Origin: Deltaproteobacteria bacterium RIFCSPLOWO2_02_FULL_50_16
GTDB taxonomy: Bacteria > UBA10199 > 2-02-FULL-50-16
Assembly: GCA_001798715.1 (NCBI GenBank)
Contig: MGSF01000006.1
Coordinates: 2,972 to 37,634 of the forward strand
Reading direction: 5' to 3'
Length of the DNA: 34,663 nt
Below the pieces are notes generated by a model. It made no database searches. It had not been told where the DNA came from and saw nothing but the letters and a program-made list of their open reading frames with translations. Positions 32,473 through 34,663 of this stretch are shown here, piece by piece; position 1 is the first letter of the stretch; each line of letters begins with the position of its first letter. The translations under genes were made by a program, and so were the position numbers.

Positions 32473-33705
32473 ATGGTCCCCCCATCCATCAGGCCCAGGC
32501 TTGAGGCCGTTTTCGAGGCCTTGAGGCGGCCTATCACCTCGGTGAGGCAATTAGCCGGTCATGTCCGCGGTGTTCGTGAGGTTTTAGGACCCGGGCATCC
32601 TTTGCATCAGAAAACCCTGACGCTTGAAAGGATTATTGACGCTCAAGGAGAAGAAACAGTTGCCGATCCCTCGATTCGGGAAGGGGCAGAGATTTTTCTT
32701 CGACAGGCCGGGGTCCTGCCTGAGAGGGAACAGGATCTCCAAACATTTGCAGAAGGGTTGGAGAGGGTCGTTCAATCATCACCAGAACATCTTTGGTCTC
32801 GAGGGGCTGGTCGGTTTGCCGCTACGGCATTTGCTGGGGCGGGTGTTGCTGCGTCTCCCATCCCTGGATATATCCTTGAAGAGGCGATTGGAACGGGGGC
32901 GACGTCCGTCTATCGAGCCGTCCAAGAAGGTTCAGGCCGTGCCGTGGCCATCAAGGATTATCGTTGGATGACGACCCTGCCCTCTGACACGACATCCAGT
33001 TTGGAGGCTTATAGGGCCCGTCTTCGTTTTTCCGGGGGGGCGCTCAATGAGGTTCGGTTTCAGTGGCGGCCTTCTTCGCCACACATCGTCGAACTGGTGG
33101 ATATCGTGAGCACGCCGGAACGACTGGCCCTCGTCTATGAACTGATGGAGAGGAGCGTGGGGGCCATGGTGATGCAGCATCAAAGGCCGTTTACCTTAAG
33201 ACAGGCGGCGCAAATGATCGAATGTGTGGCCTGCCTGCACGAGCACGGTATCTTGCACCGCGATATCAAACCGGAAAATTTTCTGCAAAGTCCAGGGGAC
33301 GGGATCGTCAAAATGACCGACTTTCAAACCAGTTGTCGTTTTGGCGAACGTCCGACCACCCTGGATGCCGCTTTTTATTATCTTCCCCCGGAGGCGAGAC
33401 CGACCTCTCACTACTATGATCCTACGGCCGACGTTTATGCCTTGGGCAAGACCCTTTTTCAGATGTCCGAAGGGGGATGGGCCACGCCCTTGGAAGAACG
33501 GGTGGCCCTTGCACGGCAGACACCGGAGGGACTTATGAATCTTCCCCTCCTTTTGCATCCTGATCCCGCAAGACCCTGGCATCGAGATCCACCCCCGTTT
33601 GAGACGATCCTTCGCCGGGCCATGGCCCCGGATCCTCTTAAGCGTTATCCAGACGCCGTCGCCATGAGGGAGGATTTTCATAGGCAGTTGGGAACACACC
33701 ACTAG
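32473..33705 (+). CDS. Hanks-type Ser/Thr protein kinase with DFG-to-DFQ substitution and N-terminal domain of unknown function
   Basis: 'YILEEAIGTGATSVYRAVQEGSGRAVAIKDY', 'HGILHRDIKPENFLQ', 'VKMTDFQTSCRFG', 'YLPPEARPTSHYYDPTADVYALGKTLFQM'. Confidence 0.9.
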   Translation: MVPPSIRPRLEAVFEALRRPITSVRQLAGHVRGVREVLGPGHPLHQKTLTLERIIDAQGEETVADPSIREGAEIFLRQAGVLPEREQDLQTFAEGLERVVQSSPEHLWSRGAGRFAATAFAGAGVAASPIPGYILEEAIGTGATSVYRAVQEGSGRAVAIKDYRWMTTLPSDTTSSLEAYRARLRFSGGALNEVRFQWRPSSPHIVELVDIVSTPERLALVYELMERSVGAMVMQHQRPFTLRQAAQMIECVACLHEHGILHRDIKPENFLQSPGDGIVKMTDFQTSCRFGERPTTLDAAFYYLPPEARPTSHYYDPTADVYALGKTLFQMSEGGWATPLEERVALARQTPEGLMNLPLLLHPDPARPWHRDPPPFETILRRAMAPDPLKRYPDAVAMREDFHRQLGTHH

Positions 33706-33827: not shown

Positions 33828-34343
33828 TTATGAAGGGCGGGGGACGTAGATGGGGAGGGCTTGATCGGGATGGAGTTGGAGGTCGCCCCTTTCGGCCTCT
33901 CCCGGTTGGAGGATTTCGGGGCCATAGCCAAAAAATTCCTGAAAGGAATGAGATTCGTAGGAAACGGACAGGATTCCTCCTCTATAGATAGCTGTGACGG
34001 TGTAACCGTCTCTGAGACGAAAGACGCCCGGGCCGGTTTGGCTTAACTGGCTTTGATACTGACCATCCACCCAGACAAGGATCCCACTCTCAAAGGGGAT
34101 GGCATCGATGTCGCTGACACAAAAATCCCCTTTTGAGCTGTGTCCCGCGGGCAGTCGAAACCGGACCCGATCGTGGATGTGAAAATCACTGCTGATCACC
34201 CAAAAGGGTTCCTCTCCCCCATTGATGACGATCCCCCCGTCCGATTTATGGGATCGATCCGTAAAATCGGCGCAAGGGTTCTCGACCGTGGGGGAAGAGG
34301 CGCATCCCCAAAAGGCAAGTATTCTCGATGATACGAAGGTCAT
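33828..34343 (-). CDS. Hypothetical protein, possible lipoprotein
   Basis: N-terminal 'MTFVSSRILAFWGCASSPTVENP' (weak lipobox-like WGC), soluble beta-rich remainder. Confidence 0.6.
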   Translation of the reverse strand: MTFVSSRILAFWGCASSPTVENPCADFTDRSHKSDGGIVINGGEEPFWVISSDFHIHDRVRFRLPAGHSSKGDFCVSDIDAIPFESGILVWVDGQYQSQLSQTGPGVFRLRDGYTVTAIYRGGILSVSYESHSFQEFFGYGPEILQPGEAERGDLQLHPDQALPIYVPRPS

Positions 34344-34420: not shown

Positions 34421-34557
34421 CTATCGCTCATTATCAGTCATTATAAGTCGTTATCAGCCATTTATAAGTCAGACCATTTTTAGTGTGACTGATAAAGGGG
34501 GTATTTTATAAGTCATTATGCGCCATTATAAGGCTTTTATAAGGCATATATAGGTCA
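34421..34557. repeat. Degenerate 10-11 bp phased tandem repeat array
   Basis: Block 1 (34421-34471): CTATCGCTCA TTATCAGTCA TTATAAGTCG TTATCAGCCA TTTATAAGTCA. Inverted unit TGACTGATAA (34486-34495). Block 2 (34506-34557): TTATAAGTCA TTATGCGCCA TTATAAGGCT TTTATAAGGCA TATATAGGTCA. Confidence 0.8.
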
Positions 34558-34577: not shown

Positions 34578-34663
34578 TTATTGCGTCTCTTGCTTTTCCC
34601 GCTGGTAATATTGTTCAAACAGGGGATCCTCTTTTTTCTTTTCCTTTTTCTGCTTTTCGTAAT
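34578..34663 (-). CDS. C-terminal fragment of a minus-strand gene (truncated by the window edge)
   Basis: Minus-strand frame ending ...YEKQKKEKKKEDPLFEQYYQREKQETQ*, TAA at 34578-34580. Confidence 0.55.
   Translation of the reverse strand, partial: YEKQKKEKKKEDPLFEQYYQREKQETQ

Follow-up and report, generated by a model that had tools for sequence, protein, structure and literature searches.

What is the role of an array of short direct repeats, about one helical turn apiece, which lies between two genes of a bacterium and recurs elsewhere in its genome? The window analysed here, a stretch of 34,663 nucleotides from Deltaproteobacteria bacterium RIFCSPLOWO2_02_FULL_50_16 (contig MGSF01000006.1, positions 2,972 to 37,634 of the forward strand), carries such an array at positions 34421-34557; the source genome amounts to 1.73 Mb in 90 contigs and is 92% complete. 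We propose that the array is the binding site of a protein with four transmembrane (TM) helices and a winged helix-turn-helix (wHTH) domain, hereafter the 4TM-wHTH protein, and that it holds the locus at the membrane. This reading, to which we give a probability of about 0.55, is the best explanation overall.

The array and its sister copies

The array comprises two blocks of five direct 10-bp units on the + strand. The first block (34421..34471) is composed of CTATCGCTCA TTATCAGTCA TTATAAGTCG TTATCAGCCA(T) TTATAAGTCA, with starts at 34421, 34431, 34441, 34451 and 34462 (spacings of 10, 10, 10 and 11 bp), and the second (34506..34557) of TTATAAGTCA TTATGCGCCA TTATAAGGCT(T) TTATAAGGCA(T) ATATAGGTCA, with starts at 34506, 34516, 34526, 34537 and 34548 (spacings of 10, 10, 11 and 11 bp). 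The central gap (34472..34505, 34 bp), whose flanking units lie 44 bp or ~4.2 turns apart from start to start, contains one inverted unit, TGACTGATAA (34486..34495, - strand), which is placed 6.2 turns from the first unit and thus near the same face. The initial annotation had claimed this very layout, all elements of which were recovered in place. The periodicity exceeds that of shuffled sequence: when the 234-bp intergenic region was dinucleotide-shuffled 5,000 times, a run of five sites spaced by 10/11 bp did not occur even once, and the window array has two such runs. Parts of it are picked up by Tandem Repeats Finder (TRF) and by a repeat finder. A strict detector, blind to the sequence of the unit, called 7 arrays in 298 kb of fetched real sequence, all of the window-array type, whereas Markov sequence of five times that length (5 x 298 kb, or 1.5 Mb) yielded none.

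The genome-wide search that had been suggested revealed two further copies, on contig C7 from position 2533 and at C87:5423-5549, which are 72-73% identical to the window array and 89% identical to each other. Both lie 3' of, and co-directional with, a gene for a ~199-amino-acid 4TM-wHTH protein; on C87 the array begins at the stop codon, and on C7 it is separated from the gene by an 88-bp GC-rich stretch. Between these two contigs the gene is 85% identical and the immediate flanks are unlike, so that gene and array form a unit conserved together while the flanks differ. The window array had no close relative in 59 other genomes, and a search of plasmid DNA with the array region gave no match. 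Adjoining the C87 array, we noted an IS200-like Y1 transposase domain (L002:75-1055), in a protein whose C-terminus matches the DnaA DNA-binding domain (Bac_DnaA_C) just under the cut-off.

Gene-array pairs, recognition and phasing

Homologs of the 4TM-wHTH protein were found in 9 of 46 genomes of the window's phylum, and also in metagenome-assembled genomes labelled Lentisphaerae or Kiritimatiellaeota. All 20 homologous loci whose 3' flank was read have a phased array 3' of the gene, mostly beginning at the stop codon or within tens of bp of it. The unit-blind score reaches at least 13 at 18 of them, for a null of 7 matches of at least 12 in 3 x 298 kb, the best being 14.5. The unit itself varies by locus: TTATCRGTCA in the window's own genome, and elsewhere TRCGCCCCA, CGCCCCA, TGACCCA, TACRACCCA, CCGTCYCA, TATGACCCA, ATCGACCCA, TAACGTCCT, TTGCCGCTCA, AATGGCGCGTAA, GGGGGATAAA, GATGCATAA, TTTGACCCAT, TTGGTCGT and TGAGCGATAAA. 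One genome, G061, encodes four 4TM-wHTH proteins with four different units. A clear inverted unit is present in the gap of 12 of the 21 tabulated arrays, the window array included, and several of these inverted units have a stretch like GGCCAAAAAGTG ahead of them. The units may point either way relative to the gene, those at L060, L061, L063, L066 and L088 seeming reversed when compared to the units that end in YCA. No homolog was detected by tblastn in 72,556 plasmid or 50,697 phage records (E 1e-8), by a pattern scan of IMG/VR or, in a wider search of the phylum of G061, in additional genomes among 289. Solitary arrays of five other units were sought in the phylum and none was clear, two 25-bp matches (E ~0.005) seeming due to chance. 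At two loci (G016 C52, L046:9940-10569, and L063:3022-3697), the 4TM-wHTH gene seems broken by an in-frame stop and the 3' array is intact.

Protein and unit change together. At 17 loci, near-duplicates removed, proteins that are alike in the 11 residues around the recognition helix tend to have similar unit matrices (Mantel r=0.31, p=0.001). This correlation survives when the remainder of the wHTH is controlled for (partial r=0.29, p=0.003), and that remainder itself carries no signal once the helix is given (r=0.00). The helices SHSTAYRLL (L062, L083) and SHNTAFRLL (L064) pair with CCGTCYCA. The helix SRSSLGRLL pairs with TATGACCCA in both G017 and G009, the G009 protein having at its N-terminus a membrane segment unrelated to that of G017. 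These sequences are read most simply if every protein binds the array next to its own gene, and we consider it very probable that array and 4TM-wHTH protein are a cognate binding pair.

The sites would be read from one side of the double helix. For 157 forward sites, taken from arrays with at least four sites, the phase coherence is maximal (0.89) at 10.5 bp per turn, compared to 0.37 at 10, 0.71 at 10.25, 0.77 at 10.75 and 0.54 at 11 bp, and the neighbour spacing averages 10.59 bp. The coherence is maintained over the central gap, with start-to-start gap lengths clustering near whole turns (31-32, 42, 51-53 and 63 bp), and the inverted units lie near the phase of the direct ones (vector length 0.75, n=12). 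With the coherence peaking at 10.5 bp over the 21 arrays, the proposal made in the initial annotation, of one turn per unit, a single DNA face and a cooperative assembly, is well supported. Since the units stand in either orientation relative to the gene, the site would work as duplex DNA, and this together with the 10.5-bp coherence points to a property of a protein on duplex DNA and not of an RNA. The array thus functions as duplex DNA that is contacted along a single face, most likely by its membrane protein.

The protein itself consists of four hydrophobic helices followed by a C-terminal winged helix that matches IclR/TrmB/MarR-type models. AlphaFold (AF2) models contain four long helices (10-36, 45-66, 75-95 and 103-130) and a confident wHTH, the latter being modelled well and the membrane part moderately (predicted local distance difference test, pLDDT, ~80 with 15 sequences). 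The charges obey the positive-inside rule with both termini inside, so the wHTH should be cytoplasmic. No PDB structure matched the models below E 0.001; the membrane part has no Pfam, NCBIfam, PHROG or PADLOC model, and PADLOC gave no system-specific match, only a generic wHTH likeness to CARF/Csa3/SoFic regulators. Our searches of open-access papers brought up no account of a 4TM-wHTH protein paired with a phased array 3' of its gene. Two further unnamed genes precede the 4TM-wHTH gene in G019 (several copies) and G013, forming an apparent operon with it, and G045 has the second of them (L049:6004-7010, L047:1226-2178 and L045:4136-4636). The first encodes a membrane protein that contains DKTPxxxVxQFYN, the second a secreted protein that contains GGYC...AGGTKIGG, and neither has a Pfam match.

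Tethering and its alternatives

How might such a pair hold a locus at the membrane? One wHTH domain would bind each 6-8 bp core. Proteins embedded in the membrane would reach one DNA face only, and the sites would recur every 10.5 bp because a membrane-held protein can reach only one face of DNA lying on the membrane. About 13 turns of DNA would thus be laid flat along the inner membrane surface, the inverted unit capping or orienting the assembly, and multivalent contact would keep the locus in place. As the protein is made next to its own array, the site would tether itself, and for the solitary array of the window the proteins encoded on contigs C7 and C87 would do so in trans. A broader version, in which a two-part module of many specificities (at most four per genome) pins chosen loci, often those of defence genes, to the inner membrane with neither motor nor cytoskeleton, is put forward tentatively, at somewhat less than even odds.

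Several points weigh against tethering. The pairing with the gene, the co-variation of unit and helix and the phasing on one face can be read from sequence; that tethering is the main purpose is deduced from the anatomy, and we hold it to be an even bet. The window array keeps the full layout with no wHTH gene adjoining it, and its central gap of 44 bp is slightly off whole turns. The unit consensus was picked by eye, and some sites were taken with two or three mismatches; the chance sites thereby included would lower the coherence. A clear inverted unit is not evident in 9 of the 21 tabulated arrays, a few arrays (G009, L066 and L083) are short or weak, and the promoter sites of soluble relatives, described below, would favour a regulatory role for the domain.

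The main alternative, possible though rather unlikely, is that the array is the operator of a membrane-bound one-component regulator of the ToxR/CadC kind, which in the window would control a lipoprotein-like open reading frame (ORF) of 171 amino acids with no Pfam match (33828..34343, - strand). This ORF starts 78 bp from the array, which stands in the intergenic region ahead of it and hence in its possible promoter region; promoter matches within the array are at chance level. Elsewhere, the L063 array is followed by a same-strand AlbA_2 gene and the L088 array by a methyltransferase-like ORF. As a rule, however, gene-linked arrays sit 3' of their gene, their downstream neighbours are not conserved, and those at C87, L045, L048-50, L062 and L083 face a convergent neighbour, a setting in which one would expect no promoter downstream and which speaks against promoter function at these loci. 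There are three candidate readings of the window array: the C7 and C87 proteins may act on it in trans, it may be the operator of the 171-amino-acid ORF, or it may be left over from a lost gene-array pair. To its right lies the 3' end of a gene (34578..34663, - strand, frame read by eye, C-terminus ...EDPLFEQYYQREKQETQ), which is not that of the wHTH protein; the truncation that had been noted is due to the end of the contig (37634) and not to the window edge alone. A Pkinase-domain gene lies to the left of the array region (32473-33705, + strand, E 3.5e-29).

The regulatory alternative draws further on a wHTH-only profile, which also retrieves, from genomes of the phylum, distantly related Fic-wHTH and DUF4325-wHTH proteins. 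Several of these soluble relatives, and solo wHTH genes, carry 3-5 repeated sites just ahead of their start codon, spaced by ~11 and 21 bp (L112, L115, L116, L117, L122, L125, L128 and L131), some of them interleaved with TATAAT-like boxes. They are probable autoregulatory phased operators and would support the view that this type of wHTH reads phased direct repeats. These upstream arrays, in which one-turn and two-turn spacings are mixed, were for that reason missed by the strict 10/11-bp chain test and were read by eye. They resemble the 3' arrays in lying, phased, next to their own gene; they differ in being shorter, on the promoter side and devoid of a central inverted unit, and their proteins lack the 4TM domain. 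Apparent arrays within AlbA_2 coding sequences (L113, L127) were rejected as sites, being apparently due to peptide repeats with a 12-nt period; in these proteins, tandem KTTQ or KTRE repeats stand right before the wHTH domain.

ToxR and CadC begin with an OmpR-type winged helix and have, besides, a single TM helix and a periplasmic sensor. The 4TM-wHTH protein likewise joins a membrane part and a winged DNA-binding domain in one chain, but it has four TM helices, a C-terminal MarR/IclR-like wHTH, no large periplasmic domain and an array of its own.

That the array is a centromere-like partition site of the parC or stbDR type, brought by mobile elements and serving DNA segregation, appears improbable. 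Its layout is that of R1 parC, with two sets of five ~11-bp direct repeats (PMC4949242; the same layout appears in the title of a 1994 paper by Dam and Gerdes, which PMC5016525 cites), and of the R388 stbDRs, two sets of five 9-bp repeats that are 2 bp apart, hence with an 11-bp period (PMC3098194). The four units of G061 recall compatible partition families, whose specificities coexist in one genome (PMC9426499) and, in the ParR-parC case, vary between families. The wHTH model also resembles centromere-binding AspA, though as many regulators equally. Yet ParR is typically a soluble ribbon-helix-helix protein, parC lies upstream of its operon and is served by the ParM motor; here, the sister arrays are paired with a 4TM wHTH protein, the arrays are at the 3' end of the gene and have an inverted unit in the gap, and no actin-, tubulin- or ParA-like motor was recognised among those of the neighbours that were scanned. 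R388 StbA acts, as here, as a single DNA-binding protein, but the stbDRs flank the stbABC promoter on a conjugative plasmid. To our knowledge, StbA is not a 4-TM protein. As defining features of both families fail, the array is not filed with either. Besides, the lack of plasmid and phage homologs and the position of several loci amid housekeeping genes speak against partition. The iteron-like assembly evoked in the initial annotation is not supported either, no replication gene being recognised near any array read, and an iteron replicon was discarded for want of a recognisable initiator beside the arrays.

Less probable still is a self-contained module, selfish or defensive, whose putative membrane-active protein would be kept in check by the array it binds, with the DNA as antidote, and freed upon loss of or damage to that DNA. 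In a raw count, restriction, toxin-antitoxin, Fic or YhcG genes are nearby in ~10-12 of 18 distinct settings. The neighbours recognised are AbiEi/AbiEii near C7; a HigB toxin, an M78 peptidase and a Beta-protein gene near the G016 locus; YhcG or DUF1016 nuclease genes near G017, G019 and L083; a type III restriction-methylation pair near the G009 locus; SNF2-Mrr near L060, Fic near L062, AlbA_2 near L063, a type I restriction subunit near L064 and a QueC-like gene near L065. The patchy distribution of the homologs and the joint conservation of gene and array amid differing flanks fit such a module, but the generic likeness found by PADLOC does not.

Neutral tandem slippage or an RNA element has practically no chance of being correct: as a single strand the array does fold better than shuffled sequence (z -2.6), as arrays with an inverted unit tend to, but the three same-genome copies share their layout at 72-89% identity, distant relatives retain it with other unit sequences, which refutes slippage, the 10.5-bp coherence spans the gap, units stand in both orientations relative to the gene, and neither an Rfam match nor a terminator was found.

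Implications

If tethering is correct, these pairs would be a minimal bacterial means of fixing a chromosomal locus at the membrane, and the helical phasing of the sites would follow from the protein being membrane-bound. The co-diverged proteins and sites offer a natural data set for winged-helix recognition, that is, for which residues read which bases, and could become orthogonal DNA-anchoring parts. They also bring to light an unnamed membrane family linked to neighbourhoods rich in defence genes. Under the regulatory alternative too, the family would define a novel type of membrane regulator, the array being placed 3' of the regulator's own gene.
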